Under the pieces are notes generated by a model, which made no database searches, was not told the DNA's origin, and saw nothing but the letters and a program-made list of their open reading frames with translations. From the NCBI GenBank assembly GCA_017631855.1, contig JAGBSP010000023.1, positions 1-64,000 of the forward strand: a stretch of DNA of 64,000 nucleotides, in the 5' to 3' direction. A program made the translations under genes and the position numbers. This DNA is from Clostridia bacterium. Lineage in GTDB: Bacteria; Bacillota; Clostridia; Oscillospirales; CAG-272. How positions within the stretch are numbered: position 1 is the first letter of the stretch; every line of letters starts with the position of its first letter. This document shows, piece after piece, positions 7,093 through 50,013 of the stretch.

Positions 7093-9234
7093 ATGACCGA
7101 ACGAGTAACAAGATTTGCCGCACTTTCACGAGAGCGCGACCTTTATGAAGCAACCGTCACCCCCGAATTCGATCCGATGGATCTGGCACTGCCCACGGCG
7201 GTGATGAACGGAAAGCGCATCATTGAATATATTCTCTGCCAGCCCGTCTATCTGACCGAGGACAACCGCTATACGGGAATGCTCCGCTTTTCATCCAAGG
7301 CGCTCCAAGGCACCCCTGCCGACGTATTCCACCGCAAAGGACACGAGAATTTCCAAAAAGCGGCAAAGGAGCTCTATTGGCCGCACTATCAGGAAAATCT
7401 GACGATCTTTGAATGGCAGCATTCGGCACCGAACTACACCTATATCGTAGAAAACGGCATCGAGGGATCGCTCGAAAAGATTGCGTACTACAAAGAAAAA
7501 TACCGCTTTGACAAAGAGAAATACAACTACCTTGACGGCGTGGAGATCGTCTGTCGCGGACTGATCAAGTGGTCGGAAAAGTGTGCTGACGCGCACGAAG
7601 CAGCCGCCAAGACCTGCGACAACGAATCAAGACGCGCAGAGCTTCTCCGCCTTGCCGAGATTTGCCGCCGCGTTCCGAGAACCCCCGCAAAAACCTTTTA
7701 CGAGGGACTTCAGGCAATCATCTTCTGCTTCCAGTTCCTACCCGATAGCGTCGGAACGATCGACCGTACCCTGCTCTCACTCTATGAGCACGATATCAAA
7801 AACGGCATCATCACCCGTGAGGAAGCCAAGGAGCTGCTCGCCGAATTCTTCATTCACCTGAGCGCCCACACCCCTGCAGGTCACGCGCACGCCGATAAAA
7901 CCGCCGAGTGTCACTTTGCCATCGGCGGCTACAATGAGCGTATGGAAGACGGCTTTACCGATCTTTCTCGCGCGATGGTCGAGGCGCTGATGGAAACCGA
8001 CATTCGCCGTCCCGCAATGTCGTTGCGATGGAACAAAAAAACCCCCTTTAAGGTGCTCAAGTTTATGCTCGAATGCGAGCGCAACGACAAAAACAAGCGC
8101 TTTGCCTTCGTCAACGACGAGCCTCGAATCAAGGCACTCACCGAGATTTTCGGACTTCCTCTGAGTGAGGCGGTCAAATACACGATGGTCGGCTGTAACG
8201 AGCCGTCCTTCCCCGGGGCTCTCTGGCTCGGCGGCTGTACGGCAAACATTATGCGCTGTATGGTGACTACACTCTATGAAAAGACCGACGAAATCGTAAA
8301 GTGCGAAAGCTTTGATGAATTTTACGCGATCTTCCGCAACGAGCTGGAGCGCGATCTTGACCGCATTCTTTGGTATTCCGATCAGTTCGACGCGATGCGC
8401 ACGAAGGATATCAACGTGCTGAGTGCGTTCCTGCTTGACGGCTGTATTGAGAAGGCGACCTCGCCCACACAGTACGGCTCCAAACATGCCATCGGCGGTG
8501 TCGGTTTGATGGGTCTTGTTCCCCTCATTGACTCGCTGACCATCATCAAGCAGTACGTCTTTGACGAAAAGAAGGTATCGATGGAGCGCCTCGTTGAGGT
8601 GCTTCGCTCGAACTGGGAAGCCGACGAGGAGCTTCGCACCGATATCTACAAGCACGGACGCTTCTTCGGCAATGCCGATCCGCTCTCGGACGAAATGGCG
8701 CGCCGCGTCAGCACCGAGCTTTACGAGATTCTCAAGGATCGCCGCCTTGCCAACGGCGCGCATCCGCTGATTGGAACGCTGGCAGGCTACAACCCGCACC
8801 ACATGGAATTCGGAAGAAGAACCCCCGCCACGCCCGACACCCGCTACGCGGGCGACGGATTTATGGTCGGTACGGGACAGTGCGGCGGCAAAGACAGAAA
8901 CGGTCTTGGCGCGCTGATGCAGTCGCTCGCGCAGATGGACCCCACGGGCATTCTCTCGGGACCGACCGTCTGCAATATGATGATCGACGGCGCTCTGATG
9001 AAGAACGACGAGTATTTCGATAAGGTGTGTCTTATGATCGAGGAATACTTCAAGCTCGGCGGACTTCACGTTCAGCTCAACTACGTTACGAGAGAAGAGC
9101 TGCTCGCCGCACGCGAGGATCCCGCAAAGCACGGTCACCTCAAGGTGCGCGTATCGGGTTTCTCGGCATCCTTCAACGTCCTGCCCGAGCTGATGCAGGA
9201 AGAAATCGTACAAAGAACCGTACAGCAGTGCTAA
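7093..9234 (+). CDS. Glycyl radical enzyme GRE1, function unknown
   Basis: 713 residues of the pyruvate formate-lyase/glycyl radical superfamily. The radical glycine is Gly689 in RVSGFSASF near the C-terminus; the thiyl cysteine is Cys368 in VGCNEP, with Glu370 two residues on (Cys-X-Glu, as in GREs that eliminate water, amines or sulfite). It is shorter than the roughly 790-850 residue dehydratases. The usual TPDGR(x)AG(E/D)P region reads ATPDTRYAGDGF, then a glycine-rich stretch unlike characterised members, so the substrate cannot be assigned. AAGGAAGG precedes the ATG at 7093. An SDR follows 10 bases later. No activase is in this unit; one must act in trans, e.g. 14257 or 21979. Confidence 0.88.
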   Translation: MTERVTRFAALSRERDLYEATVTPEFDPMDLALPTAVMNGKRIIEYILCQPVYLTEDNRYTGMLRFSSKALQGTPADVFHRKGHENFQKAAKELYWPHYQENLTIFEWQHSAPNYTYIVENGIEGSLEKIAYYKEKYRFDKEKYNYLDGVEIVCRGLIKWSEKCADAHEAAAKTCDNESRRAELLRLAEICRRVPRTPAKTFYEGLQAIIFCFQFLPDSVGTIDRTLLSLYEHDIKNGIITREEAKELLAEFFIHLSAHTPAGHAHADKTAECHFAIGGYNERMEDGFTDLSRAMVEALMETDIRRPAMSLRWNKKTPFKVLKFMLECERNDKNKRFAFVNDEPRIKALTEIFGLPLSEAVKYTMVGCNEPSFPGALWLGGCTANIMRCMVTTLYEKTDEIVKCESFDEFYAIFRNELERDLDRILWYSDQFDAMRTKDINVLSAFLLDGCIEKATSPTQYGSKHAIGGVGLMGLVPLIDSLTIIKQYVFDEKKVSMERLVEVLRSNWEADEELRTDIYKHGRFFGNADPLSDEMARRVSTELYEILKDRRLANGAHPLIGTLAGYNPHHMEFGRRTPATPDTRYAGDGFMVGTGQCGGKDRNGLGALMQSLAQMDPTGILSGPTVCNMMIDGALMKNDEYFDKVCLMIEEYFKLGGLHVQLNYVTREELLAAREDPAKHGHLKVRVSGFSASFNVLPELMQEEIVQRTVQQC

Positions 9235-9244: not shown

Positions 9245-10000
9245 ATGAAACTGAGAAATGATCATATCGTCATCTTCGGCGGAGGAAGCGGCATCGGTCT
9301 TGCCATCGCAAAGCGTTTTTGCGAGGCGGGAGCGGAGGTGCTGATCGTCGGAAGAAGCCAAGAAAAATTAGAAAAGGCTGCCGAGGAAATCTCCTCGGCG
9401 AGCCTGCACGTTGCCGCATTTGACGTTGCCGATTGCGATCATCACCGCGACTTCTTTGAAAAAGCAGAAGCAGAGCTTGGCGCAAAGATCGGCGGCTTTG
9501 TCAATGCGGCGGCACTTGGTTCGAGTGTACTCGGACGCGGCTACGAGCCGTGGGACATCACCCCCGACGAATGGACGATGCTCACCGACGTCAACTTCAA
9601 GGCGGCGTTTTTCCTGATGCGCAACGAGATCAACTATTTTCTCGAAAAAGAGATCCGCGGCAACATACTGAATTTTGCCTCCAACGCCGCGTGTATGGAT
9701 ATTCGCGGTAGCTACGGCGCCTCGAAGGAAGCCATCATCAAGTGGACGCGTGCGCTTGGAAAAAAGTACGGTCACAACGGCATTATTCTCAACGGAATTG
9801 CCCCCGGCGCAACCTTTACGCCGATGATCGCAAGCTACGCGCACTCGATCGACCAGCCCTACGAGCGCCACGCGATTGAGCGCTTTATCCGTCCCGACGA
9901 GATCGCCGAGCTTGCCTTTTATCTGATGAGCGACTACGGCGAGATCATCTGCGGACACACCGTCGTTGCCGACGGAGGCGATAATAAAGCGACGCTTTGA
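9245..10000 (+). CDS. SDR family oxidoreductase
   Basis: 251-residue short-chain dehydrogenase with the dinucleotide motif GGGSGIGLA at residues 12-20 and the catalytic SYGASKEA. The C-terminus, HTVVADGGDNKATL, is family-typical. It is co-transcribed with GRE1 (10-base gap, AAGGAG site) and most simply handles the carbonyl or alcohol made or used by GRE1; that link is inference from position. Confidence 0.85.
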   Translation: MKLRNDHIVIFGGGSGIGLAIAKRFCEAGAEVLIVGRSQEKLEKAAEEISSASLHVAAFDVADCDHHRDFFEKAEAELGAKIGGFVNAAALGSSVLGRGYEPWDITPDEWTMLTDVNFKAAFFLMRNEINYFLEKEIRGNILNFASNAACMDIRGSYGASKEAIIKWTRALGKKYGHNGIILNGIAPGATFTPMIASYAHSIDQPYERHAIERFIRPDEIAELAFYLMSDYGEIICGHTVVADGGDNKATL

Positions 10001-10084: not shown

Positions 10085-12160
10085 ATGAAAAAGTTCTGTG
10101 ACGGAAATATTGAACGCTTCATTCGAAATGAATATTACGATCTTCTTGCACCTCTGTCCCCCACAGAGCGTTTTGCTAAAAAATTCGATCTGATGCTCTC
10201 TCTTCTGCGCCCCGAGCTTCGCGAGAACGACGAGTTTTTCGGTTGGCTCATCTTTGATGAGAAATGCGAGATCGACAGACTCTTCCCCGACGAAGAGCTC
10301 CCCGAAGCGCTTCAAAAGGCAGAGGAAAAAATGCTCTCCTTCGGCACACGAAGCAAGGTGGACCGCGGTCACACGCTGATCAATTACGAAAAGATTTTGA
10401 AATTCGGTCTTTCTCATTATGAGAAAGAAATCGAGCGCGAGCTCGCAATCACCCCTAACGATCCGATGCTTTTGGCAATGCAAAGCACTCTTAGTTCGGT
10501 TCGTTCTTTGATACAAAGAACACTTTCTTTTCTTGATGAGCAAATTGCTCTGACAGAACCCCAAGAAAAGCCAAAGAAACTCCAAACCATCAAACATTCG
10601 CTTGCCACCGTTCCCTTCTCTCCCGCAAGAGATTTTCGCGATGCACTCCAATCGATCTGGATCATCCATTTTCTGACCCCCTTGGCAGAGAACGCGTGGT
10701 ACTCTATCTCTCTCGGACGCTTCGATCAATACGTCTATCCTTACTATCAAGCCTCTCTCGCAAACGGAATGACGAGAGCGGAAGCAAAGAAAATGCTTCG
10801 TCAATTTTACGAGCTTCTCAACAGCTACGCCGACGGCGCTTGCCTTTTGAATATCGGCGGAGAGGAATACAACGAGCTCTCCGAGCTGATCGTGGAATGT
10901 CAAAAGGAATTCTCGCTCCCCGGTCCGATTTTGGCGGCAAGAATCACCGAGCATACGCCCGACCGTATTTGGGAGATGCTGGTTGACGAGAAGCTTTTCT
11001 CAATGGGTCAGCCTACCTTTTACGGCGAAGACGCTTGCGTCCGCGCCCTGATGGAAAAGGGAGTGCCCGAGGACAAAGCAAAACAATTTGCCAACAGCAG
11101 TTGTATGGGCATCGGTCTTGCGGGAGAAGAATTTGACAGCATGTGGGGCTGTGTCTTTTCGGTGTCCGCCGCGCTGGAAACTGCGCTGAATGGCGGTGCC
11201 TTCGTCACAAGAGAGCTTCCTTGGCGCATTCCGAATATCCGTGAAAAAATCACCACCCTTGACGAACTCTATGAAGCCTTTGAAGCCTCGGCGACCTATC
11301 TTTTGGACTTCGCTCTGCCGACCTATCTTTCTCTGGCAAAGCATAGCGAGGAAACAACCCCCGACTGCTTTGTTTCACTCCTGACTGAAAACTGTATCAA
11401 AGAGCGGCGCGACCGCATCTCGGGCGCACCCTATCACAACGTGACCGTGGAATGTATGGGAATGGTCAACGTGTCGGACGGAATCTGCGCGATGGATCAG
11501 CTCGTGTTCCGTGAGAAAAAATATACCCTCTCCGAAATCCACTCTGCCCTCAAAAATAATTTTGATGGCTCTGAGGATTTGCGGCAAGAGCTTCTTGCAT
11601 GCCCGAAATTCGGACAGGATTCCGTGGCAGACGAGTATGCTATCCGCGTTGCCGAGATTCTGCAAAAAATCATTCGCCGTCACAGCGAGGGACGCGTTCA
11701 CTTCTGCCCCTCTCTGCACACCTTAAAGAGTAATATTCGCTACGGTTCCGAATGGGGCGCGGGTTACGACGGACGCTCGGCGGGTACCCCCCTTGCCAAA
11801 AACGGCGGCTCGTCCAATTTTGCAAGAAGCGTCCGCCCCACCTCGCTCGTATTGTCTGCCTCAAAGCTTCCGCAACACAAGTTTTTTGGCGGTCAGCCGA
11901 TCGACGTCAGCTTTTCCGCTGACACCGTAAGAGAGCACAAAAAAGAGCTTGCCGCTCTGATTTCCACCTATCTTCAGAGAGGCGGACTGCAATTTCAGGT
12001 CAACGCGGCATCTTCCAAGACTCTGCGCGCCGCCTATGAAAACCCCGAGCAGTACTCTCACCTGATCGTCCGCGTCGGCGGATTCAGCCTTTATTTCAAC
12101 ACACTCCCCGACAATGCAAAGTTAGAGTTCATCGAGCGTTTTGAAAAAGAAGGAACCTAA
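10085..12160 (+). CDS. Glycyl radical enzyme GRE2, function unknown, without the Cys-X-Glu base
   Basis: 691 residues of the GRE superfamily. Gly666 sits in RVGGFSLYF near the C-terminus. The cysteine loop reads NSSCMGIG with Cys340, so the residue two places on is Gly, not the Glu used as base by eliminating GREs. The substrate-binding and C-terminal regions (YDGRSAGTPLAKNGG) also differ from GRE1. This argues for chemistry other than simple elimination, or for a relocated base. The ATG at 10085 is preceded by TTGGAGG; an in-frame GTG at 10058 is less likely. It leads an operon with a phosphotriesterase-like protein, a serine hydrolase and an activase. Confidence 0.86.
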   Translation: MKKFCDGNIERFIRNEYYDLLAPLSPTERFAKKFDLMLSLLRPELRENDEFFGWLIFDEKCEIDRLFPDEELPEALQKAEEKMLSFGTRSKVDRGHTLINYEKILKFGLSHYEKEIERELAITPNDPMLLAMQSTLSSVRSLIQRTLSFLDEQIALTEPQEKPKKLQTIKHSLATVPFSPARDFRDALQSIWIIHFLTPLAENAWYSISLGRFDQYVYPYYQASLANGMTRAEAKKMLRQFYELLNSYADGACLLNIGGEEYNELSELIVECQKEFSLPGPILAARITEHTPDRIWEMLVDEKLFSMGQPTFYGEDACVRALMEKGVPEDKAKQFANSSCMGIGLAGEEFDSMWGCVFSVSAALETALNGGAFVTRELPWRIPNIREKITTLDELYEAFEASATYLLDFALPTYLSLAKHSEETTPDCFVSLLTENCIKERRDRISGAPYHNVTVECMGMVNVSDGICAMDQLVFREKKYTLSEIHSALKNNFDGSEDLRQELLACPKFGQDSVADEYAIRVAEILQKIIRRHSEGRVHFCPSLHTLKSNIRYGSEWGAGYDGRSAGTPLAKNGGSSNFARSVRPTSLVLSASKLPQHKFFGGQPIDVSFSADTVREHKKELAALISTYLQRGGLQFQVNAASSKTLRAAYENPEQYSHLIVRVGGFSLYFNTLPDNAKLEFIERFEKEGT

Positions 12161-14234: not shown

Positions 14235-14256
14235 TCAACTTAATCAAGGATTTTCT

Positions 14257-15087
14257 ATGACTGCTACAATTTTTGATATTGAACGAAGCTCCTTTGTGGA
14301 CGGTCCCGGCATTCGCACGACCGTCTTCTTCAAAGGCTGCAATTTGCGCTGCGCGTGGTGCCACAACCCCGAAAGTCAAAAACGCGAGCCCGAGCTTGCG
14401 TTTTTCGAAAGCCGTTGCACACATTGCGGTAAATGCCGTGAGAAGTGCCCGAACCACTTGGAACAATGCACTCTTTGCGGCGAATGCGCGCGCTACTGCC
14501 CCACCGACGCGCGCAAGATCTACGGCAAAGAAATGAGCACCGACGAGGTGATGGACGAAATTCTCCGCGACCGCGCCTTTTACGAAAACTCAGGCGGCGG
14601 TGTCACCTTCTCGGGCGGAGAGTGTATGCTCCAAATTGATTTTCTCGAAGAAATTCTGAAAAAATGCAAAGAAAGCGGCATTCACACCGCCGTCGATACC
14701 GCGGGACACGTGCCCTACGAGTATTTCGAGCGCATTCTTCCCTACACAGACCTTTTCCTCTACGACGTCAAAGCATTTGACACCGAAGTTCACAAGCAAT
14801 ACGTCGGTGTCGGTAACGAGCGAATCCTCGAAAACCTTGCAAAGCTTCTCTCCGCAGGCGCACCAATCTGGATTCGAATTCCCACGATCCCAACCGTGAA
14901 TGCAGACGAGAACGAAATGCAAAGGATCAAGGCATTTCTCGACGAGCACGGAACGACCGAAAAGGTCGAGCTTTTACCCTACCATACGATGGGAGAGGGA
15001 AAATGTCTGGCACTCGGCAAAGAGCTTGTCACCTTCCCCACCCCCGATGCCGAAACGATGCAAAAGCTTCGTGCAATTTTCGCATAA
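14257..15087 (+). CDS. Glycyl-radical enzyme activating enzyme with two auxiliary 4Fe-4S motifs
   Basis: 276-residue radical SAM activase. FVDGPGIRTTVFFKGC leads into CNLRCAWC (CX3CX2C, SAM cluster). An inserted ferredoxin-like part carries two cysteine sets, CTHCGKCREKC and CTLCGECARYC, followed by the SGGGVTFSGGE motif. It would abstract H from the radical glycine of a partner GRE, most likely GRE2 in the same operon and perhaps GRE1, which lacks its own. The start at 14257 is chosen because the family N-terminus begins there; the frame is open well upstream but overlaps the previous gene. A terminator follows. Confidence 0.92.
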   Translation: MTATIFDIERSSFVDGPGIRTTVFFKGCNLRCAWCHNPESQKREPELAFFESRCTHCGKCREKCPNHLEQCTLCGECARYCPTDARKIYGKEMSTDEVMDEILRDRAFYENSGGGVTFSGGECMLQIDFLEEILKKCKESGIHTAVDTAGHVPYEYFERILPYTDLFLYDVKAFDTEVHKQYVGVGNERILENLAKLLSAGAPIWIRIPTIPTVNADENEMQRIKAFLDEHGTTEKVELLPYHTMGEGKCLALGKELVTFPTPDAETMQKLRAIFA

Positions 15088-15103
15088 GAAAACAAATATA
15101 ACA

Positions 15104-15134
15104 AAGCCAAGATCAACACGATCTTGGCTTTTCT
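15104..15134. terminator. Bidirectional rho-independent terminator
   Basis: Stem AAGCCAAGATC (15104-15114) with GATCTTGGCTT (15120-15130), then TTCTTT, between convergent genes. Confidence 0.85.
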
Positions 15135-15899
15135 TTATTTCGTATATTGATTGGGCGACACGCCCACCCTCTTTGAAAATTCTCTTGAAAAATGGCACGG
15201 CTCCGAATATCCGCAAAGTGTGGCAATCTCACTCACGGTAAACTGTTCCGAAAGAAGCAAGGATTTTGCATATTCGATCCTCATACGAATCAAATATTCC
15301 TTGGGGGTAACACCAAACTGATCCTGAAAGATCTTCCGAAAATAGACCTCGCTCACGCCGCACGTCTCGGCAAGCTCCGCCACACTCAACGAATTTTCGG
15401 AAAACCTCGTTTCAATGGCTTTCATCGCAGGAGCAAGTAGGTCTGTATGTCCGCTGGGGTGATACTCCCTCTCGTTTTCCTTGACCATCAGACGAACGAT
15501 CTCATAGAGCGCGCTCATTGCCGAAAGCTCCCGCGTGTCTGCGTGCGCCTTCCATTCCTTTGCCGCATTGCGGAATAATTTTCTCATCGGCTCGGGATCG
15601 CGGATCGGGATCGAAAACGGCTCTTCCGAAAGCTCGGCATCAAAATTGATGGCATAGCAGTTGCTGTTATCGGCACTTTTGACACGGTAGGTTGAGCCCT
15701 TGGGCAAATAATAGAGCTCGTTCCCCTTGGTATGAAGCACTCTTCCGTCCGAGAAAAAATAGGTATTATCCTTTCCCCCGTCATTCAGAACAAGACCGTG
15801 CGCGGGACGGTTTTCGTGATAGGTCTTTCCAAATCTCGGAAGCACCCACATTGCCAATGTGATCTTCCTGACACTCAACTTTTTCCATTGCTCGGTCAT
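15135..15899 (-). CDS. AraC family transcriptional regulator (divergent from GRE3)
   Basis: About 254 residues: a cupin-like N-terminal domain (NELYYLPKGSTYRV) and a C-terminal double HTH (LSVAELAETCGVSEVYFRKI, then VSEIATLCGYSEPCHFSREF) ending RVGVSPNQYTK. The ATG at 15899 has AAAGGAAG before it and a strong promoter at 15931-15959 upstream, which excludes the longer in-frame starts. It is divergent from the GRE3-GRE4 operon, its probable target. Confidence 0.9.
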   Translation of the reverse strand: MTEQWKKLSVRKITLAMWVLPRFGKTYHENRPAHGLVLNDGGKDNTYFFSDGRVLHTKGNELYYLPKGSTYRVKSADNSNCYAINFDAELSEEPFSIPIRDPEPMRKLFRNAAKEWKAHADTRELSAMSALYEIVRLMVKENEREYHPSGHTDLLAPAMKAIETRFSENSLSVAELAETCGVSEVYFRKIFQDQFGVTPKEYLIRMRIEYAKSLLLSEQFTVSEIATLCGYSEPCHFSREFSKRVGVSPNQYTK

Positions 15900-15930
15900 T
15901 GTTTCGCTTCCTTTCGGTGATCTTTTCTTC

Positions 15931-15959
15931 ATTATACACTTTTGTTTCGATTTCGTCAA
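15931..15959 (-). promoter_or_regulatory. Promoter of the AraC gene at 15135-15899
   Basis: Minus strand: TTGACG (15954-15959), 17-base spacer, TATAAT (15931-15936). Confidence 0.78.
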
Positions 15960-15976
15960 GTGTTTTCTTTTCTTCA

Positions 15977-16004
15977 TAGACAAAATTTTTTTCTTTGCTA
16001 TAAT
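15977..16004 (+). promoter_or_regulatory. Promoter of the GRE3-GRE4 operon
   Basis: TAGACA (15977-15982), 16-base spacer, TATAAT (15999-16004), 36 bases before the GRE3 start. Confidence 0.65.
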
Positions 16005-16039: not shown

Positions 16040-18259
16040 ATGCAATACATCAATGACATAGATTACGATTATATCATCAACAAGCACCACGACGCCTCAA
16101 AGCCTTGGAACGGTATGGGCAGATTTGTCCGCCGTGACGAGATCTTCGATCCCGCGACGGGAATGGATGCCGACGCGCTCCGCGATGGATTTCTTGCTCA
16201 AGATGAAGCACTCAAGGATCATCCCCACCCGATCCGCAAAGCAAGAGCTCTTGAGTTTATTATGAAAAACACAAGAATTTCCTGCGATCCGCGCGACCGA
16301 TATCCGTCGGTCAACGCCAACGACCGTCCTCTGAAAAAGACGATTGTTGACGAATGGAAGCGCGAGGTCTTAAAGCAGATCGTACCCGAGATCGGCGCAA
16401 AGCGATCCTATTTTGAAAAAGAAGGCATCGTTACGATCTGGCCCGACTACGACCACTCGATGCCGATGTGGGAGCGTGTTCTCTCTCTCGGCTTTGCGGG
16501 ACTCTTACGAGAAAGTGAAAAGGCACGCCACGCAAAAGAATGGGACGAGGAGCAAGAAATTTTCTTTGAGGGAATTAAAATCACCTATGAGGCAATCCTT
16601 ACTTTGGTCGACAGATTTGCCACGCTTGCCGAGAACACAGAGGGCTCGGAGAGAATGGCAAAGGCACTCCGTCAGCTGGAAAAGGGTGCACCCAAAAACT
16701 TCTACGAGGCGCTTCTTCTCGACTACCTCTACTTTCTCATCAGCGAGCATATCGACTATTTGCAGGTACGCTCGCTCGGCAACTTCGACCGCCTATTCTA
16801 TCCTTACTATAAAGCCGACCTCGAACGCGGCATCACGGAAGAAGAGATCCGCACCGATATCGCCTATTTTCTCGCGCAATTCGTTGCCATCTCGAACTAT
16901 TGGAATCAGCCCGTCTATCTTGGCGGAGAAAAGGCCGACGGCTCGACCGAAATCAACGAGCTTTCCTATCTGTTCCTTGACGTGTACGACAAAATGGGCA
17001 TCTATACCCCGAAAATTCAAATCAAAGTGGGAAAATCCACCCCGAAAGACTTCGTTTGCAAGGCTCTCGATATGATCCGCCGCGGAAATAACTCCATCGT
17101 TTTCGTCAACGATGACACCATGCAAAAAGCACTTCTGCGTGAAGGAGCCACCAAAGAAGAGGCGCGGCTTTGCCACGTTACGGGCTGCTACGAATATAGC
17201 CGACAGGATTCCTATTTTGCGCAAATGAATATGCTCAATCTCTTAAAACCGTTCGAATATACCCTGCACGAGGGATACGATCCCATCACGGGCAATCGGT
17301 CGGGACTTCCCTGTCCGCCCCCTTCGGCATTTGAAAGCTTTGACGATCTGCTCGCGGAATTCAAACGACAGTTTTGCCACATCGTCAATGAAGCGATCGA
17401 GGTGGTCAACGGCTTTGAGGGATACCTTTCCTATATGAATCCCCTTTCGATGCTCTCGGCAACCTTTCCCACCTGTCTCGAACGCGGACGCGATGCCATC
17501 GTCGGCGGTGCGCGGTATAACGATTCTACCATTGCCTTTGGTGGACTTGCCGACCTCGGCGACTCGCTGATGATGATCAAAAAATACGTCTATGAGCAGA
17601 AAAAGCTGACGCTCTCGGAATTCGTTTCGATCCTTGACCAAAATTTTGAGGGACACGAAACCTTCCGTCAAATGCTCCTTCGCGACCGCGAAAAATACGG
17701 AAATAACCTCCCGCGCGCCGATGAAATGACCATCTCGCTGGCGAAATTCTGCATTGATCACGTGTACGGTCGCCCCAACGCCAAGGAGCGCGGCGGCATT
17801 TGGAAATGTAACTTCCACGTTGCGCGCCACTCGTATATTTGGGGTGATAAAACCGCCGCTTGTCCCAGCGGAAGAAAATGCGGCGAGGAGCTTTCCAAAA
17901 ACCTCTCTCCCGCTCTCGGTCAGGCACGCGAGGGTATCACGGCAACCGTGCTTTCCTTTACAAAGCTCGATAACACGGTAATGGCGTCGAACTTTTCGCT
18001 CGACCTCGCGTTTCTCCCCTCTGCCGTGCGCGGCGAGGAGGGACTTGAGGCAATGTACGGCGTACTGATGACCTTTAACCGTCGCGGCGGTCACGCGGTA
18101 CACTTCAACGTCTTTGACGCCGAGATGCTCCGCGAGGCGCAGGCAAATCCCGAAAAATATGCAGATCTTCAGATCCGCGTGAGCGGCTGGAACGTCCTTT
18201 GGAACAATATCGACCGTTGGGAGCAGGACGGCTTTATCCGTCAAGCGGAAGCGCTCTAA
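16040..18259 (+). CDS. Glycyl radical enzyme GRE3, function unknown
   Basis: 739 residues of the GRE superfamily. The radical site is Gly716 in RVSGWNVLW: the aromatic residue after the glycine is Trp instead of Tyr or Phe, and the usual closing Phe is also Trp. Thiyl Cys383 and Glu385 lie in TGCYEYS (Cys-X-Glu, elimination type). N-terminal sequence SCDPRDRYPSVNANDRP and the rest do not match propanediol dehydratase, CutC, HypD, isethionate lyase or PFL closely enough for assignment. AAAAGGAG precedes the ATG. It is a close paralogue of GRE4, 15 bases downstream. Confidence 0.9.
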   Translation: MQYINDIDYDYIINKHHDASKPWNGMGRFVRRDEIFDPATGMDADALRDGFLAQDEALKDHPHPIRKARALEFIMKNTRISCDPRDRYPSVNANDRPLKKTIVDEWKREVLKQIVPEIGAKRSYFEKEGIVTIWPDYDHSMPMWERVLSLGFAGLLRESEKARHAKEWDEEQEIFFEGIKITYEAILTLVDRFATLAENTEGSERMAKALRQLEKGAPKNFYEALLLDYLYFLISEHIDYLQVRSLGNFDRLFYPYYKADLERGITEEEIRTDIAYFLAQFVAISNYWNQPVYLGGEKADGSTEINELSYLFLDVYDKMGIYTPKIQIKVGKSTPKDFVCKALDMIRRGNNSIVFVNDDTMQKALLREGATKEEARLCHVTGCYEYSRQDSYFAQMNMLNLLKPFEYTLHEGYDPITGNRSGLPCPPPSAFESFDDLLAEFKRQFCHIVNEAIEVVNGFEGYLSYMNPLSMLSATFPTCLERGRDAIVGGARYNDSTIAFGGLADLGDSLMMIKKYVYEQKKLTLSEFVSILDQNFEGHETFRQMLLRDREKYGNNLPRADEMTISLAKFCIDHVYGRPNAKERGGIWKCNFHVARHSYIWGDKTAACPSGRKCGEELSKNLSPALGQAREGITATVLSFTKLDNTVMASNFSLDLAFLPSAVRGEEGLEAMYGVLMTFNRRGGHAVHFNVFDAEMLREAQANPEKYADLQIRVSGWNVLWNNIDRWEQDGFIRQAEAL

Positions 18260-18274: not shown

Positions 18275-20503
18275 ATGAAGTATATTAGCGACAGAGATTA
18301 CGATTATATTATCAATAAACACCACGATGCCTCGAAGCCCTGGAACGGTATGGGCAGATTTGTTCGCCGCGACGAGATTTTTGATCCCGCCACGGGACTG
18401 GATGCCGATGCGCTCCGCGAGGGCTTTCTCGCGCAGGACGAAAGCATCAAGGACCTGCCACACCCGATTCGCAAGGCGCGTGCGCTCGAATTTATTATGA
18501 AAAACACAAGAATTTCCTGCGATCCGCGCGACCGATATCCGTCGGTCAATGCCAACGACCGACCTCTCAAAAAAACGATCATCGACAATTGGAAACGCGA
18601 GGTTCTTAAAGAAACTATTCCCGAGATCGGAAAGAAACGCTCCTATCTTGAAAACGCGGGCATCGTTACCATCTGGCCCGACTACGACCACTCGGTTCCC
18701 GTATGGGAAAGAGTGTTTGCGCTCGGCTTTGCGGGACTGCTCCGCGAGAGTGAGGAAGCAAGAGCCAAGGGAACTTGGGACGAAAAGCAAGAAGCCTTCT
18801 TTGAGGGCATCCGTATCACCTATGAAGCAATCCTTACGTTGGTCGGCAGACTTGCCACCCTTGCCGAGAAGACAGAAGGCTCGGAGAGAATGGCAAAGGC
18901 GCTCCGCCAACTCCAAATCGGCGCACCGACGAATTTCTACGAAGCCTTGATGATGGACTACCTCTATTTTCTCATCAGTGAGCACATCGACTATTTGCAG
19001 GTGCGCTCCCTCGGTAACTTCGACCGTCTGTTCTATCTCTATTATAAAGCAGATATTGAAAACGGCGTGAGTGAAGAAGAGATCCGCACCGACCTCGCCT
19101 ACTTCTTTCTACAGTTCGTTGCCATCTCGAACTATTGGAATCAGCCCGTCTATCTTGGCGGTGAGAAAGCCGATAGCTCGACCGAGATCAATGAGCTTTC
19201 CTATCTCTTCCTTGACGTTTACGATCAAATGAGCATCTATACCCCGAAAATTCAGCTCAAGCTCGCGGATTCGACGCCGAAGGACATCGTATATAAAATG
19301 CTCGATATGATCCGTCGCGGAAACAACTCGCTCGTCTTTGTTTGCGACAAAACGATCCGCGAAGCGCTCGTCCGCAATGGCGCGACCGAGGAAGAGGCAC
19401 GTACCTGCGTGGTCAAAGGCTGCTATGAACACGGTACCATCGGCTCTTACAGTGCGGGAATGAACTATCTCAATCTCCTAAAGCCGCTCGAATATACGCT
19501 CCACGAGGGACGCGATGCCGTCACGGGAGAGCCTGCGGGACTTCCCTGTCCGCCCCCCTCGGCATTCGATACCTTTGACAAATTCCTTGCCGAATACGAG
19601 CGACAGCTTGCGAACGTCATCGATCTGACCGTCGAGGTCGTGAACGGCTTTGAGGGCTATCTCGCCGAAATGAACCCCCTTTCGATGCTCTCCGCGACCT
19701 TCCCCACTTGTCTGGCGCAGGGAAAAGATGCCATCGCAGGCGGAGCCTTGCATAATGGCTCGGAATTGATGTTCGGCGGACTTGCCGACGTTGCCGATTC
19801 CTTTACGATGATCCAAAAGCACGTCTATGAGCAAAAAACGCTGACGCTTTCCGAATTCGTTGCGATCCTCGACCGCAACTTTGAGGGCGAGGGCGACGAG
19901 ATCTTCCGTCAAGCACTTCTGCGCGACCGTGAAAAATACGGCAACAATCAGAAGCGTCCCAATGAGTTCGCAAAGCATCTGATTTCCATTTTTGAGAGAA
20001 ATCTCTGCGGTCGTCCCAACAACGAAAAACGCGGCGGTACGTGGAGCTTCGGCACGCACGTGGCAAGACAGTCCTACGTCTGGGGCGACAAGTCTTTGGC
20101 TTCTCCCAACGGACGAAAGCTCGGCGAAGAGGTTTCCAAAAATGCGTCCCCCATGCTCGGTCAGGCAAAATCGGGCGCGACCGCCGCCATTCTTTCGGTT
20201 ACCGAGCTTGACGCGTCGGTATCTCCCTCGGACTTCGCGCTCGACCTCGGTCTTTTGCCCTCTGCCGTTCGCGGTGAGGAGGGACTTGACGCAATGTACG
20301 GTTTGGTAAAGACTTTCCAAAAGCGAGGCGGTCACGCGTTGCAGATCAACGTCTTTGACGCAGACACCCTGCGTGACGCACAGAAAAATCCCGAAAAATA
20401 CGCCGACCTTCAGATCCGCGTCAGCGGCTGGAACGTCCTCTGGAACAACATTTCGAAAGAAGAGCAAGACGGCTTCATCCGTCAGGCAGAGGCACTTTGC
20501 TGA
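18275..20503 (+). CDS. Glycyl radical enzyme GRE4, tandem paralogue of GRE3
   Basis: 742 residues and collinear with GRE3 over its whole length, nearly identical in the first hundred residues. It shares Gly718 in RVSGWNVLW and Cys383-X-Glu385. The residues right after the cysteine loop differ strongly: EHGTIGSYSAGMN against EYSRQDSYFAQMN in GRE3. So do the regions around 520-620. The pair looks like a duplication followed by change of the active-site wall, giving either two substrates or a heteromeric enzyme. AAAAAGGAG precedes the ATG; the SMP-30-like gene starts 1 base after the stop. Confidence 0.9.
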   Translation: MKYISDRDYDYIINKHHDASKPWNGMGRFVRRDEIFDPATGLDADALREGFLAQDESIKDLPHPIRKARALEFIMKNTRISCDPRDRYPSVNANDRPLKKTIIDNWKREVLKETIPEIGKKRSYLENAGIVTIWPDYDHSVPVWERVFALGFAGLLRESEEARAKGTWDEKQEAFFEGIRITYEAILTLVGRLATLAEKTEGSERMAKALRQLQIGAPTNFYEALMMDYLYFLISEHIDYLQVRSLGNFDRLFYLYYKADIENGVSEEEIRTDLAYFFLQFVAISNYWNQPVYLGGEKADSSTEINELSYLFLDVYDQMSIYTPKIQLKLADSTPKDIVYKMLDMIRRGNNSLVFVCDKTIREALVRNGATEEEARTCVVKGCYEHGTIGSYSAGMNYLNLLKPLEYTLHEGRDAVTGEPAGLPCPPPSAFDTFDKFLAEYERQLANVIDLTVEVVNGFEGYLAEMNPLSMLSATFPTCLAQGKDAIAGGALHNGSELMFGGLADVADSFTMIQKHVYEQKTLTLSEFVAILDRNFEGEGDEIFRQALLRDREKYGNNQKRPNEFAKHLISIFERNLCGRPNNEKRGGTWSFGTHVARQSYVWGDKSLASPNGRKLGEEVSKNASPMLGQAKSGATAAILSVTELDASVSPSDFALDLGLLPSAVRGEEGLDAMYGLVKTFQKRGGHALQINVFDADTLRDAQKNPEKYADLQIRVSGWNVLWNNISKEEQDGFIRQAEALC

Positions 20504-21388: not shown

Positions 21389-21982
21389 ATGAAACACGTC
21401 TTTTTAATCGGCGACTCGATTCGATTTGGCGCACCGCCCAAAAGTCCCGGCTACGGCGGTTACGTCAAGGAAATGCTGAAGGACGAGGCAGAGGTTTTTG
21501 CCCCGAACGACAACTGCCGTTGGGCGCAATACACGCTCCGTTACGCGCACGAATGGGCAAAGGAATGCCCCGCTGAGGTGATCGACGTCGTGCATTGGAA
21601 TAACGGTCTTTGGGACGTTCTCCGACTTCTCGGTGACGAGCCTCTGACCGATATCGAGGACTACGGTAAAATGCTTCGCCGTGTGTACGCGCGCATTCAC
21701 ACCCTCTTTCCTAACGCCAAGATCGTCTTTGCGCTGAGCACGGCGGTCATTGAGGAATGGGGCAAGTCCACCTTCTTCCGCTACAACCGCGACATTGAAG
21801 CCTACAACCAAAAGGCGATCGAGGTGCTGAGCGAATATGGCGTGCGCTTCAACGACCTCTATACCCTGTCGTGGCAATTGAGAGAGAATTATCACTCCGA
21901 TTGGGTGCACTATAACGAGGAAGGCTCGAAGATCCTCGCCGAAGCCGTCGTCAAGGTTCTGCGTGAGGAAATGAACCAATGA
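21389..21982 (+). CDS. SGNH/GDSL-family hydrolase
   Basis: 197 residues with Ser10 in the N-terminal GDS motif (LIGDSIRFG), a block-III Asn-like segment (HWNNGLWD) and the C-terminal D-x-x-H pair Asp171/His174 (SDWVHYN). No signal peptide, so cytosolic. Members remove acetyl, acyl or aryl ester groups from sugars. In a GRE3-GRE4 operon it could strip an ester from the incoming substrate. It overlaps the downstream activase by four bases (ATGA). Confidence 0.8.
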   Translation: MKHVFLIGDSIRFGAPPKSPGYGGYVKEMLKDEAEVFAPNDNCRWAQYTLRYAHEWAKECPAEVIDVVHWNNGLWDVLRLLGDEPLTDIEDYGKMLRRVYARIHTLFPNAKIVFALSTAVIEEWGKSTFFRYNRDIEAYNQKAIEVLSEYGVRFNDLYTLSWQLRENYHSDWVHYNEEGSKILAEAVVKVLREEMNQ

Positions 21983-35560: not shown

Positions 35561-38086
35561 TCAGAATCCTTGCTGCTCGGTTCGGTTGATGATATCCTCC
35601 TGAAGTCCCTTGGACAGCGTGGTGAACAGGGCAGAATATCCTGCCACTCTGACAACCAAGGACTTGTATTTTTCAGGATGCTTTTGCGCATCACGCAGGG
35701 TTTCGCGGCTGACCACGTTAAACTGCATGTGGCTTCCCTTTTGGTCGAAATAGCCGCGAACGAGCGCCGCAAAGCTTTCCAGACCACTCCGTCCTTCGAG
35801 TGCCGAAGGATGGAATTTCATATTAAAGAGCGTACCGTTCGAGGCGATGTAGTGGTCGAGCCTCGATACCGAGTTTGCCGATGCCGTCGGACCCTTGACG
35901 TCGCGTCCCGCCGCGGGAGAAACTCCGTCGGCAATCGGTGTAAAGGCAAGTCGTCCGTCAGGCGTTGCTCCCGTCTGCGCACCAAGCGGTACGTTTGCGG
36001 ATACGGGATAAAGTCCTGCTTGGAAAATACCGCCGCGAGGATTCTTGTAGCTCTCCATCGGCTTCGTGTAGGTATATGCCATTTCGCGAGCAAACAGGTC
36101 GATCTCATCCTCGTCGTTTCCGAATTTCGGAAGCGCCTGAATGTCGGCAAGAAGTGCCGCGTATTGCTTCTTCTCTTCGTCGGACGCTTTGTTTGCCTTC
36201 ACCGTGGTGTATACCGTCTTGATATCCTCCTCGGTCAGCTCCTTGCCCGATGCAACGATCGATGCCGCCACTTGCGCAGTCAGCTTTGCCGCCATCTGCG
36301 AATCCATTTCCTGACCGAAGTTTGCGTCAAGTGCTTTCTTGAAGAAGCCGAGCGTGTATTTCTTATCTTCAAACACAAGCTTCTTCACCGCGTACATACC
36401 GTCGGTGACGTTCGCAATACCGAAGCCCTGCGGTCCTGTGAAGTTGTAAATCGCTCCACCCTCCTGCAGGCTCTTTCCGCGTCCGATGCAATCCTCAACC
36501 ATCGAGGATTGGAACGGCAGCGGGCAACGCTCGGCGTGTGCTACGTCAATCGCGTTGTCGGCGTTGACCAACAGCTCAATAAAGTAATTCATCTGTGCAC
36601 GGTAAGCGTTCTCGAATTCCTCGTAGGTGCGCATCGTTTCGACCTCACCCGTGCGAGGACCAATCTGCACTCCCTTGTCCTTACCGTTCGAGAAGACAAG
36701 CTCCAGCGGACGGCACATATTGAAGAATGCCGCGTCGTGCCAACCGTCGGTCTTTGCCGCCTTTTGCGGCTCCACGCAACCGATGATGTTATAATCTCTT
36801 GCATCCTCAAGTGTCAGTCCTCTGCTCTGCAGCGCGGGAATGATTACCTCGTCGTTGTAGTATGCGGGGAATCCGATGCCCGTTCTCGTCAGCTCTGCCG
36901 CGCGAATGAGAAATTCGTGCGGTGTGCCGTTCCAAACTCGTACCGAGAAGGACGGCTGAGGCAGGAAGACGTGCTCGGTTGCCGTGACCGACATAAACGA
37001 AAGATCGTTGGTCGCGTCGCGCCCGTACTTGTCCTGACCGCCCGCAATCAGATTCTGGAAGAGGCTGTATCCCGCAAAGCCCTCGGCAGAAGCCGCGTCA
37101 CGAACCTTGTTGAGGTCGTTGAGCTTGACCCAGATGCAGTCCATCAGCTCCTGCGCTTCTTCGCGCGTCAGCTTGCCTGCATCGAGGTCCTTTTTATAAT
37201 AAGGATACATATATTGGTCAAAGCGTCCGGGCGAGATCGAATGTCCGCTCGACTCGATCTGCAGAAGCATCTGCACAAACCAGAAGGACTGGCACGCCTC
37301 GCGGAAGCTCTTTGCTCCGTACTCGGGAACCTCACGGCAGACCGCCGCGATCTCCTCAAGCTCTTTTCTGCGACGAACGTCCGCTGTCGTCTTTGCCATT
37401 TGCGCCGCAAGCTCGGAATATCTCTTCGCATACGCGATTGCCGCCTCACAGCTCATGATCACCGCGTCAAGAAAATGACTTCTCTTGGCAAAATCGGCAT
37501 CTCCCGCAGAGAGCTTTGCACGCGCATCCTTTGCTTCCTTAATAATACCGCGATAACCGACGGCAAGCACCTTCGGATAGTCGACCGTCAGGTGACCGAT
37601 GCCGTTATAGAAGTAGTTACCGGGAGTAAACATTCCGTGATCGATTGCAATCTTTGCCGCATCGGTCATATACGAGGTAGCAAGCTCGCTGGTCGTTTTT
37701 CCCTTCCAGTACTTGTACACCTTGGAAAGCGTCTGCTTCGTTTCCTCCGAGATGTAGAACGGATCTGCCGTTCTTGTTTCCACCGTATCAAATTCAGATT
37801 CCAACCACTCAAAGGAGTACTCGGGAAATACCTGACATCCTCTGGGTGCTCTCGTTGCCGCACCGACGATCAGCTCATTCTCGCGAATGACGATCGGCAG
37901 ATGCTCGAGAATGTGGCGGAATGCCTTGGCACGGCGCGTGATGATCGGCTCTCCCTCGGTCGCCATATACGACTCGGTCAGGAGCACAGCGCGGTCTGCC
38001 TCGATCTGAGGCATCTTTTCGTAAAGCGCGTCGACCAGCTTTTGAATTCTCGGAGATTTTTCAATCGGCTCTGTATAGAACTTCAT
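35561..38086 (-). CDS. B12-independent 1,2-propanediol dehydratase (glycyl radical)
   Basis: 841 residues, the normal length of diol-dehydratase/CutC-type GREs. Thiyl Cys437 and Glu439 lie in IIGCVEPQ, Gly816 in RVAGYSALF, and [11 protein letters not shown] is standard. It turns 1,2-propanediol into propionaldehyde. The choice of propanediol over choline rests on context: fucose-type aldolase, EutS/PduS/PduT-like genes and FucI in the window. It is the first gene of the microcompartment operon. ATG at 38086 (GTG at 38089 possible) with AAAGGATGA upstream. No obvious encapsulation peptide. Confidence 0.9.
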   Translation of the reverse strand: MKFYTEPIEKSPRIQKLVDALYEKMPQIEADRAVLLTESYMATEGEPIITRRAKAFRHILEHLPIVIRENELIVGAATRAPRGCQVFPEYSFEWLESEFDTVETRTADPFYISEETKQTLSKVYKYWKGKTTSELATSYMTDAAKIAIDHGMFTPGNYFYNGIGHLTVDYPKVLAVGYRGIIKEAKDARAKLSAGDADFAKRSHFLDAVIMSCEAAIAYAKRYSELAAQMAKTTADVRRRKELEEIAAVCREVPEYGAKSFREACQSFWFVQMLLQIESSGHSISPGRFDQYMYPYYKKDLDAGKLTREEAQELMDCIWVKLNDLNKVRDAASAEGFAGYSLFQNLIAGGQDKYGRDATNDLSFMSVTATEHVFLPQPSFSVRVWNGTPHEFLIRAAELTRTGIGFPAYYNDEVIIPALQSRGLTLEDARDYNIIGCVEPQKAAKTDGWHDAAFFNMCRPLELVFSNGKDKGVQIGPRTGEVETMRTYEEFENAYRAQMNYFIELLVNADNAIDVAHAERCPLPFQSSMVEDCIGRGKSLQEGGAIYNFTGPQGFGIANVTDGMYAVKKLVFEDKKYTLGFFKKALDANFGQEMDSQMAAKLTAQVAASIVASGKELTEEDIKTVYTTVKANKASDEEKKQYAALLADIQALPKFGNDEDEIDLFAREMAYTYTKPMESYKNPRGGIFQAGLYPVSANVPLGAQTGATPDGRLAFTPIADGVSPAAGRDVKGPTASANSVSRLDHYIASNGTLFNMKFHPSALEGRSGLESFAALVRGYFDQKGSHMQFNVVSRETLRDAQKHPEKYKSLVVRVAGYSALFTTLSKGLQEDIINRTEQQGF

Positions 38087-38125
38087 CACAAATCATCCTT
38101 TCATTTGGTTTTTACAGAATATTTC

Positions 38126-44097: not shown

Positions 44098-44101
44098 CAA
44101 C

Positions 44102-47784: not shown

Positions 47785-50013
47785 TTATACCTTCTCGTGG
47801 AAGGTTCTCGCAATGACCTCGAGCTGCTTATCCTTGGTCAGCTTGTTGAAGTTGACGGCATATCCGCTGACACGGATGGTCAACGAAGGATAGAGCGTGG
47901 GGTCGTTCATTGCGTCGATCAGCTTCTGACGGTTGAGAACGTTGACGTTGAGGTGATGCGCGCTCTGCGCAAAGTATCCGTCAAGCACCGCAACAAGCTT
48001 CTTGACGCGGTCTTCGTCGTCGCGTCCGAGCGCGTCGGGCGTGATCGAGAAGGTGTTGGAAATACCGTCCTGACAGCAGTCATAGCAAACCTTTGCCACC
48101 GAATTGAGCGACGCAAGCGCACCCTCGGCATCTCTGCCGTGCATCGGGTTTGCACCGGGCGCGAAGGGCTCGCCCTTCTTACGTCCGTCGGGCGTAGCAC
48201 CCGTCTTTTTACCGTAAACGACGTTCGAGGTAATGGTCAGGATCGAGAGCGTGTGCTTTGCTCCGCGGTATGCGGGGGTCTTGCAAAGCTCTTCGTAGAA
48301 ATATTCTGCGATCCACTGCGCGATCTCGTCAACGCGGTCGTCGTCGTTACCGTACTTGGGGAACTCTCCCTCGGTGATAAAGTCCACGATCAGACCGTTT
48401 TCGTCCTTCACGGGCGTAACCTTTGCGTACTTAATAGCACTAAGGCTGTCGGCAAGCACGCTGAAGCCGCTGATACCGAACGCCATCAGACGGCCGGGCT
48501 CTACGTCGTGAAGCGACATCATCAGTCGCTCGTAAGCATAGCGGTCGTGCATAAAGTGAATGACGTTCATCGTGTTAACGTAAAGCTTTGCCATCCAAGC
48601 GGCATAGACCTTAAAGGCTTCGAGCACTTCCTCGTAAACGAGCGGCTTGCCTGCCTCAAAGACCTCTCCCTCGGGAGCGATCTGCTCACCGTAGAGCTCG
48701 TCGCGTCCGCCGTTGAGTGCCATCAGAAGCACCTTTGCAAGGTTACATCTTGCGCCGAAGAACTGCATCTGCTTTCCGACCTTCATTGCCGAAACACAGC
48801 AAGCGATTGCATAGTCGTCGCCAAAGTCCTTGCGCATCACGTCGTCGTTCTCGTACTGAATCGAGTCGGTATCGATCGAAACCTTCGCACAGAACGCCTT
48901 GAAGGGCTCGGGGAGTCTTGTGGACCAGAGAACCGTAATGTTCGGCTCGGCACTTGCGCCCAGATTATAGAGGGTCTGCAAAAAACGGTAGCAGGTCTTC
49001 GTTACCATCGTGCGTCCGTCCTCTGCCATACCCGCTAAGGAACAGGTTACCCAAACAGGGTCACCTGCAAACAGGTCGTTGTATTCGGGCGTACGCAGAT
49101 GGCGCACCATGCGCATCTTAATGACAAGGTCGTCGATCAGCTCCTGCGCACCGATCTCGTCGATCGATTCGTCCGCAAGGTCACGCTCAATGTAAATGTC
49201 GAGGAACGAAGAAATTCGTCCGATGCTGTTTGCCGCACCGTTCTGCTCCTTGACCGCACCGAGATAGCCGAAATACAACCACTGTACTGCCTCGTACGCG
49301 TTGTCCGCAGGACGGGAAATGTCACAACCGTACTCTGCCGCCATCGTGATCAGCTGACGCATAAACTCCAGCTGACGCTCGCAGTCCTCAAGCAACTGAA
49401 TGGTCTCGTTGCTCATCTCGCGCTCGCCGATGCGGCGCTTGTCTGCTTCTCTCTCCTTGATCAGGTAATTCATACCGTACAGCGCGATGCGGCGGTAGTC
49501 GCCAATGATTCTTCCGCGTGCGTAAGCATCGGGAAGTCCGGTCAGAACGCCCGCGTGTCTTGCCTTCTTCATCGTGTCGGTATACGCGCGGAATACACCC
49601 GTGTTGTGTGTCGTGCGGTAGCGGAACTCGTTTTTGATGTTCTCGCCGATCTCATAACCGTACGCGCGGCACGCCTGCACGGCATTGCGGTAGCCCGCAA
49701 AGGGGTTGACGGCGCGCTTTAAGGGCTCGTCGGTCTGAAGACCGAGAATCAGATCCTCGCCCTTCTTGATGTATCCGGGCTGATAGGTCAAAAGCGACGA
49801 TACGCGTTCGGTATCAATATCAAGCACTCCGCCCTTTTTATTTTCTTCAATCAAAAGCTCGTCGACTCTCTTCTTTACCGAATCGGTACGCTTGGTCGTT
49901 CCGCGCAGGAAAGACGCATCTCCCTCATAGGGGGTATAGTTACGCAAAATAAAGTCGCGCACGTCGATTTCCTTATTCCAATTTCCTTCTTTAAAGCCTC
50001 TCCAAGAACTCAT
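47785..50013 (-). CDS. pflB: Pyruvate formate-lyase
   Basis: 742 residues, standard PflB length. Converts pyruvate and CoA to acetyl-CoA and formate. The adjacent cysteine pair is in [10 protein letters not shown], the radical Gly717 in RVSGYAVNF, and N-terminal WRGFKEGNW is typical. It is the only one of the six GREs in the window with the Cys-Cys pair. Transcription starts at 50153-50181 through a ZTP-type riboswitch with a built-in terminator. Confidence 0.96.

Follow-up and report, generated by a model that had tools for sequence, protein, structure and literature searches.

Four glycyl radical enzymes in two operons of a Clostridia bacterium appear to represent three uncharacterised families and may act on carbohydrates

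What do glycyl radical enzymes (GREs) do when they resemble none of the members whose reactions are known? The question is raised by a 64,000-nt stretch of DNA from a Clostridia bacterium (contig JAGBSP010000023.1 of assembly GCA_017631855.1; hereafter the window), in which a first-pass annotation had reported six complete GREs at 7093, 10085, 16040, 18275, 35561 and 47785, with only the last two open to naming. Both statements hold: PF02901 matches, thiyl Cys and radical Gly, and start and stop codons agree for all six, the Cys and Gly being visible in each translation. The two that can be named are ordinary GREs, a 1,2-propanediol dehydratase (PD; 35561..38089, minus strand) that matches the Roseburia enzyme 5i2a over its full length at 1271 bits, and the pyruvate formate-lyase PflB (47785..50013, minus strand; PF02901 645 bits), which lies behind a ZMP/ZTP (pfl) riboswitch at 50072-50149. 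The other four, GRE1 to GRE4, are the subject of this work. As judged from their sequences, GRE1, GRE2 and GRE3/4 are three uncharacterised GRE families, and we infer that the four perform undescribed chemistry. Our favoured reading, to which we assign a probability of roughly 45%, is that they act as radical dehydratases on sugars, polyols or sugar acids, and that neighbouring enzymes would handle the resulting lactones or deoxy compounds.

All four proteins exceed the curated cut-offs of both PF02901 and PF01228 and carry the RVxG[FWY] fingerprint with its Gly, together with a mid-protein thiyl Cys. GRE1 (713 aa; 7093..9234, plus strand; PF02901 276 bits) has Cys368 in GCNEP, Gly689 and His110, and GRE2 (691 aa; 10085..12160, plus strand; 279 bits) has Cys340 in SCMG, Gly666 and His96. 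The start of GRE2 at 10085 is favoured over a GTG at 10058 because aligned homologues begin there. GRE3 (739 aa; 16040..18259, plus strand; 336 bits) has Cys383 in GCYEY, Gly716 and His139, and GRE4 (742 aa; 18275..20503, plus strand; GCYEH) is its tandem duplicate. A chance origin can be dismissed because these open reading frames (ORFs) span 691-742 codons and match PF02901 with E-values of 9e-82 to 8e-100. The window corresponds to contig C25 of a 1.83 Mb draft genome (85.5% complete) whose named relatives are of ruminant-gut origin, and six of the seven PF02901 matches found above cut-off in that genome by profile search lie inside it. The seventh GRE (G000:C9:11552-13684, locus L109) belongs to the GRE1 family, has a divergent AraC gene and reads CNM at its thiyl loop, with no Glu two residues after the Cys (Cys+2).

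We then asked whether the four lie inside isofunctional clusters of characterised GREs; equivalog scores, identities and family clades agree that they do not. HypD is the highest-scoring equivalog model for all four (231-316 bits; cut-off 1100). The NCBIfam equivalogs for CutC, HpsG/HpfG, IAD, HPAD and PFL are not reached either (52-227 bits against cut-offs of 994-1150), and the full-length GRE equivalog models give the four at most 29% of their own cut-offs. Single-sequence searches of the PDB with GRE1, GRE2 and GRE3 as queries returned best scores of 192, 198 and 270 bits, compared with 1271 bits for PD against its own family. Identity of the four to nine solved GREs is 23-30.5%. These nine references, which are partial sequences from printed alignments, comprise glycerol dehydratase, HypD, CutC, N-methyl-hydroxyproline dehydratase, HpsG, IslA, PflD, the anhydromannitol-phosphate enzyme 8id0 and an Archaeoglobus GRE with no known reaction. 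Entry 8iof, a benzylsuccinate synthase by its molecule name, was rejected as such, the entry title being N-methyl-cis-4-hydroxy-D-proline dehydratase.

Trees were built from GREs of at least 560 aa and the partial reference sequences. With five references (141 sequences), the four fall within a 129-member clade (support 0.947) that holds none of the references, nor the window PD or PflB. With nine references (145 sequences), the corresponding clade of 121 is weakly supported (0.314), and the three family clades of 28, 28 and 42 tips each have a support of 1.0 and zero references inside. X-succinate synthases, arylacetate decarboxylases, HplG and YbiW were compared by profile, sequence or fold search rather than in the tree; no X-succinate-synthase small accessory subunit occurs among the annotated genes of the two operons, A and B, that encode the four.

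These results bear on the simplest alternative, that the four include at least one divergent copy of a described GRE (HypD, PD, CutC, IslA, HpsG, an arylacetate decarboxylase, an X-succinate synthase or PFL) catalysing the same reaction. The superfamily is shared, GRE3 is nearest to HypD (30.5% identity over 518 columns), and activase 1 of operon A resembles the HypD activase, with 352 bits in that model against a cut-off of 425. Equivalog scores of no more than 29% of the cut-offs, family clades without any of the nine references and differences at key residues such as Asp447 of glycerol dehydratase (iGDH) all argue the other way. We consider this alternative very improbable and largely refuted already: by sequence, the four score far below the curated GRE equivalogs and their families are separated from the characterised GREs tested.

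Residue conservation within the families was examined next. Homologue searches at E <= 0.001 gave 241 (GRE2), 752 (GRE1) and 1032 (GRE3) proteins, with about 8000 candidates scored in each. Members covering at least 90% of the query length among the best 120 listed per family were aligned with the window proteins, giving 119 (GRE2), 120 (GRE1) and 122 (GRE3/4) rows; the GRE2 and GRE3 sets contain the window protein's database copy as well. The listed homologues are mostly from Clostridia and carry few names (hypothetical protein, DUF3029 family protein, pyruvate formate lyase family protein, formate C-acetyltransferase). Every row (119/119, 120/120 and 122/122) has the thiyl Cys, the radical Gly and a His at iGDH position 164, and the same His was found in 20/20 sampled members of each family. 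In the GRE1 family, C368, E370, H110 and G689 occur in 120/120 rows with the motif GCNE; in the GRE3/4 family, C383, E385, H139 and G716 occur in 122/122 rows, the motif being mostly GCYE. In iGDH, Asp447 holds the substrate hydroxyl. Of the residue set of glycerol and propanediol dehydratases, the His164 position is kept in all four proteins, the Glu435 position in GRE1, GRE3 and GRE4, and the Asp447 position in none.

The GRE2 family departs from this pattern. None of its 119 rows has a Glu at Cys+2 (Gly in 114, Ala in 3, Ser in 2), and the same holds for all members of its tree clade (Glu in 0/28). C340, M341, E456, H96, G666 and Cys253 are present in 119/119 rows and Cys457 in 117/119, and the Glu456/Cys457 segment aligns with GPQG of glycerol dehydratase. 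Since the Glu at Cys+2 is missing, the base used by GRE2 must differ from that of the others, and the invariant Glu456 is a candidate replacement. These same residues invite the alternative that GRE2 is not an eliminase, and would instead catalyse another radical step such as C-C cleavage, a rearrangement or a reaction at a second cysteine, leaving GRE1, GRE3 and GRE4 as the eliminases. PflB, the window's other GRE without this Glu (CVS motif), breaks a C-C bond in its reaction. Against such a role, the nearest solved fold to GRE2 is glycerol dehydratase, the residues at iGDH positions 164, 282 and 284 (His, Ser) are kept in 20/20 sampled members, and three GRE2 relatives adjoin a DeoC and a sugar kinase, which would fit a deoxy-sugar product. 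We regard a non-eliminase GRE2 as improbable.

Predicted structures point in the same direction as the residues. The AlphaFold2 model of GRE2 (pLDDT 88.1) is closest among solved folds to glycerol dehydratase 1r8w (TM 0.87), and that of GRE3 (pLDDT 86.2) to HypD 6vxc (TM 0.83), so that both nearest folds are dehydratases. With the B12-independent glycerol and propanediol dehydratases (1r8w, 5i2a) the four share the fold, the thiyl Cys, the radical Gly and the His164 position, and all except GRE2 also share the Glu435 position; they differ in being only 24-28% identical to 1r8w and the window PD, in lacking Asp447 and in lying in operons without shell genes. GRE3 matches HypD best both by profile and by fold (342 bits, TM 0.83) and shares its CxE motif, whereas identity is 30.5%, the equivalog score is 316 bits against the cut-off of 1100, and no proline-metabolism gene was found among the annotated genes of operons A and B.

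How are the four genes arranged? They had been assigned to three regulated units, but they lie in two AraC-flanked operons rather than three, as gaps of -4 to 84 nt within each run and a hairpin behind each run indicate. Operon A (7093-15087) reads GRE1, SDR, GRE2, PTE-family hydrolase, beta-lactamase-fold hydrolase and activase, with gaps of 10, 84, 2, 8 and 16 nt. Its SDR (short-chain dehydrogenase; 9245..10000, plus strand) matches PF13561 at 140 bits. The PTE-family protein (PF02126; 12163..13089, plus strand; 168 bits; HEH at residues 24-26) is a possible lactonase, and the esterase-like beta-lactamase-fold serine hydrolase (PF00144; 13098..14234, plus strand; 185 bits) has its SxxK as SCTK at residue 56. 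GRE activase 1 (14251..15087, plus strand) is a radical SAM protein with CX3CX2C (CNLRCAWC) and ferredoxin-type clusters, scoring 339 bits in TIGR02494 (cut-off 174). An AraC-family regulator (6132..6971, minus strand; PF00165/PF12833) diverges from the operon, and a terminator-like hairpin of 12-13 pairs with a T-rich tail follows it (15103-15131, plus strand, seen on both strands).

Operon B (16040-22797) carries GRE3, GRE4, an SMP-30 lactonase-family protein, a GDSL esterase and an activase, with gaps of 15, 1, 26 and -4 nt. The SMP-30/gluconolactonase-family protein (20505..21362, plus strand; PF08450 190 bits) is likely a lactonase; the GDSL/SGNH esterase (21389..21982, plus strand) matches PF13472 at 46 bits, and GRE activase 2 (21979..22797, plus strand; PF04055) is a radical SAM protein with CX3CX2C (CPLRCVWC). 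The flanking sites are a divergent AraC-family regulator (15135..15983, minus strand; PF12833), a sigma-70-like promoter before GRE3 (15977..16004, plus strand) with 11/12 consensus matches, and a terminator-like hairpin of 17 pairs with a T-rich tail (22802-22838, plus strand, seen on both strands). Promoter and hairpins come from consensus scans, which find 16 promoter-like sites in the region against 12.6 in shuffles and 54 hairpin sites against 25. The first-pass annotation was right that there are two activases, which prove to be one per operon, each with CX3CX2C, and that shell genes are absent, as no gene of operons A and B matched a shell family in Pfam.

GRE3 and GRE4 are 74.7% identical and are sisters in the tree (support 1.0). 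An active enzyme paired with a decaying copy was considered and rejected, the catalytic residues being kept in both and dN/dS being about 0.16 (dN 0.18, dS 1.15). Divergence of function between the two is possible, judging from departures in both from positions conserved at 95% in the family (13 in GRE3, 6 in GRE4).

Which genes recur beside these families elsewhere? We collected 34 loci from named-genome contigs and further genomes from class and order searches, in which the best two or three candidates per genome were scored, making the counts lower bounds. L020 and L150 were removed before the operon counts as duplicates of L135 and L017, relatives below 34.5% identity to GRE1 or GRE3, or below 300 bits, were counted as 'other', and neighbour genes were called by an amino-acid-composition method with approximate starts. 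Counts include the window operons unless stated otherwise. Genes of the window served as seeds for SDR, PTE, beta-lactamase-fold, SMP-30 and GDSL, and their occurrence in other genomes was tested against a background of 979 genes outside GRE operons at the same loci (SDR 9, PTE 1, SMP-30 0, DeoC 3, FGGY 3).

Among 28 GRE1 operons, 11 have an SDR (10 outside the window), 3 a PTE, 2 a beta-lactamase-fold hydrolase and 18 an activase; of the 24 operons for which a divergent gene could be seen, 22 have an AraC there. SDR genes make up 11/37 GRE1 partner genes against 9/979 in the background (p 4e-12; 10/34 and p 3e-11 without the window). PTE genes lie in the GRE1 operons of L105 and L135, and beside GRE1 across a gap in L138; the beta-lactamase-fold hydrolase recurs in L107. 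The window SDR is 74 and 72% identical to those of L105 and L107, where GRE1 identity is 42 and 40%, and the corresponding values are 70 versus 63% in L138 and 65 versus 50% in L140. L135 is an exception (SDR 88%, GRE1 90%), the SDR there being no more conserved than the GRE. This locus, in a member of the same genus, holds a counterpart of operon A in the order GRE1-PTE-SDR-GRE2. The cassette is nevertheless patchy, since only 4/30 genomes of the genus match GRE2 at E <= 1e-60 (the window's, that of L135, L150 at 38% identity and one at E 1e-88).

The 37 GRE3 operons include 4 with SMP-30, 4 with an EamA transporter, 4 with a SASA/GDSL esterase (window included) and 21 with an activase; a divergent gene could be seen in 35 of them and is an AraC in 27. 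Besides the window, SMP-30 occurs in L111, L113 and L126; without the window it accounts for 3/54 GRE3 partner genes and 0/979 background genes (p 1e-4). In 32 GRE2 operons we found IclR in 6, an SMP-30-like propeller in 4, DeoC and an FGGY kinase in 3 each and a further GRE in 8. The 40 GRE operons outside the three families gave no match to SDR, PTE, EamA or SASA/GDSL; they hold 3 SMP-30-like propellers, 3 DeoC and 3 FGGY genes, the majority of which also figure in GRE2 operons. Pfam tallies agree, with SDR 11 and PTE 4 of 37 genes for GRE1, EamA 5, SMP-30 4 and SASA 3 of 43 for GRE3, and IclR 6, FGGY 4, SMP-30 3 and DeoC 3 of 54 for GRE2. One PTE of L138 had been added to the GRE1 list, the GRE3 list (previously 45) had gained two genes of L114 and lost four short genes (one of L169, two of L170, one of L171), and the GRE2 list was unchanged.

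The GRE2 partners can be placed further. The four DeoC proteins tested score 179-229 bits, all above the deoxyribose-phosphate aldolase cut-off of 117; one of them adjoins a GRE that belongs to none of the three families. Of three FGGY kinases, two lie above the xylulokinase cut-off. The most telling locus is that of Ructibacterium gallinarum DSM 107454 (L008), with GRE2 (56%), DeoC, GH43, a zinc alcohol dehydrogenase (Zn-ADH), an FGGY kinase, an SMP-30-like propeller, a second GRE and an activase. A goat-rumen Lachnospiraceae (L012) has GRE2, DeoC, Zn-ADH, FGGY kinase, propeller, an AraC-like gene and ABC solute-importer genes, and in L011 a full-length RhaA lies upstream of GRE2. The propellers (SMP-30/NHL-type) of L008, L012, L017, L022 and L102, two of them fragments of 155 and 92 aa, are 72-90% identical pairwise, and the best GRE pairs between these loci 54-71%; a claim that the propellers are far more alike than the GREs was withdrawn, the difference being smaller than that. 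In L022 and L102 an IclR gene precedes the propeller. GRE1 and GRE3 relatives co-occur in L102, L110 and L119, and GRE2 and GRE3 relatives in L009, L015 and L110.

Taken together, a dehydrogenase, a lactonase and a dehydratase-like GRE, joined in relatives by a kinase and an aldolase, resemble oxidative and deoxy-sugar pathways, which is the basis for proposing that the four are radical dehydratases of carbohydrates. A GRE would here replace the usual sugar-acid dehydratase of such pathways. The activase would install the glycyl radical, which would generate a thiyl radical on Cys368, Cys340 or Cys383, and this would abstract H from a hydroxyl-bearing carbon. In GRE1, GRE3 and GRE4 the Glu at Cys+2 would take the hydroxyl proton, the adjacent C-OH would depart as water aided by the His, and the H would then be given back. 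A cyclic sugar (C1-OH, C2-OH) would yield a 2-deoxy-aldonolactone, fitting a lactonase downstream of the GRE step; an aldonate would yield a 2-keto-3-deoxy acid, fitting an SDR and a lactonase ahead of the GRE; and an alditol would yield a 2-deoxy-aldose, fitting the DeoC and sugar kinase beside GRE2 relatives.

Several observations weigh against this proposal. No substrate or activity is known for any family member, and we infer the substrate class. The Glu at Cys+2 is found in 94/141 GREs of the wider set and is not universal even where expected: 3/28 GRE1-clade members lack it (L106, L108 and the window genome's own L109; CNL or CNM), as does the GRE3 relative L117 (CNN), so that its loss is not unique to GRE2. 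The His at position 164 does not single out dehydratases because most other GREs keep it too (128/141), and Asp447 of glycerol dehydratase is missing in all three families. Most operons lack sugar-type partners, many GRE1 and GRE3 relatives having only AraC and an activase beside them, and operons A and B contain no transporter, kinase or aldolase. PTE without the window comes to 2/34 GRE1 partner genes (p 0.003), and the statistics for EamA, SASA, DeoC, FGGY, IclR and the second propeller are partly circular because their seeds were picked beside GREs. An M20 peptidase appears in two GRE1 operons, and the partners include clearly unconnected genes (sigma factors, ribosomal protein L20, a zinc uptake system), which a loose operon rule would lead one to expect. 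Finally, the PTE, beta-lactamase-fold and GDSL families include many non-sugar esterases.

A further alternative is that the four are GRE eliminases whose substrates are plant compounds other than carbohydrates (phenolic or cyclitol esters, quinate-like acids); the hydrolases would then cut ester-linked precursors, and the SDR would oxidise or reduce the freed alcohol. The PTE, beta-lactamase-fold, GDSL and SASA hydrolases are all esterase-type. The adjoining minus-strand operon (652-5189) encodes a type-I-dehydroquinase-like protein with candidate Schiff-base Lys and His, a PIG3-type quinone oxidoreductase and a Zn-ADH (two ADH-type genes), an SDR and a GFO/IDH protein, and a dehydroquinase-like gene also lies near the GRE3 relative in L123. 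The gluconolactonase-family, FGGY kinase, DeoC, GH43/GH10/GH42, RhaA and ABC solute-importer neighbours, by contrast, are mostly carbohydrate genes, and the best 25 of 33, 53 and 49 partner families contain no aromatic-specific family, one RraA-like protein being present. We regard this alternative as less probable than the carbohydrate reading. Beside the minus-strand unit, an AraC-like gene lies at 5310-6068 (plus strand).

For the carbohydrate dehydratase reading there is a precedent among GREs with sugar-derived substrates. The YbiW/PflD GREs (8id7, 8id0, 8yjo) are described in PMC12441222 as anhydro-sugar-phosphate lyases that convert anhydro-hexitol phosphates to 1-deoxyfructose-6-phosphate. 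PflD (8yjo) and 8id0 are 23-29% identical to the four and fall outside the family clades; the substrates of these lyases arrive via the phosphotransferase system, for which the window operons have no gene. The threonyl radical enzymes (AAREs; PMC11528403) share with our loci two enzymes per activase, gut metagenomes and unknown reactions, but AAREs have Ala, Ser or Thr as the radical residue, whereas every aligned row here has Gly. GRE microcompartment loci differ in having shell proteins, which are absent from operons A and B by Pfam matches. In the open-licence papers searched, no co-mention of 'glycyl radical enzymes' and 'gluconolactonase' was found, and what pairs a glycyl radical enzyme with deoxyribose-phosphate aldolase concerns microcompartments.

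Other features were noted in passing. The PD unit (22842-38089, minus strand) includes a PduL-type phosphotransacylase, an aldehyde dehydrogenase and consecutive ORFs of 90-134 aa, which may encode shell proteins, and a Gut-1 RNA (44098-44171; 67 bits) directly follows tRNA-Ser(gga). A locus of an uncultured Lentisphaeria (L035:2302-14144, CALABZ010000369.1) has five GREs in one run (CTE, CMG, CVE, CNR, CYE), with an Fe-ADH among them and an activase-like ORF last. Relatives within the order seem GRE-rich: G427 has 11 PF02901 matches, and G655, G716 and G554 have 38-52 first-look candidates, mostly unscored.

A broader and more speculative view, which we hold with little confidence, is that gut Clostridia and Lentisphaeria possess an anaerobic radical deoxygenation toolkit for plant carbohydrates, with GRE2 using a relocated base, Glu456 (Cys457 adjacent), in a new active-site layout. 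Many short GREs, two to five in a row in some loci, would strip hydroxyls from sugars, polyols and aldonates; the resulting deoxy-sugars and deoxy-aldonolactones would then be split by deoxyribose-phosphate aldolase and opened by lactonases, respectively. Loss of the Cys-x-Glu pair across the GRE2 family could itself mean new chemistry.

That many of the GREs abundant in the gut lack a known function has been pointed out as a gap (PMC11574389). Three such families now have recurring operon partners and a testable substrate class, and Ructibacterium gallinarum DSM 107454 provides a strain-collection host of a relative of one of them. If the dehydratase reading is true, these enzymes would supply an NAD-free anaerobic step from sugars to deoxy-sugar acids or deoxy-sugars, and with it a new oxygen-free route into plant carbohydrates; the GRE2 family would then show that the Cys-x-Glu pair of GRE eliminases is replaceable.

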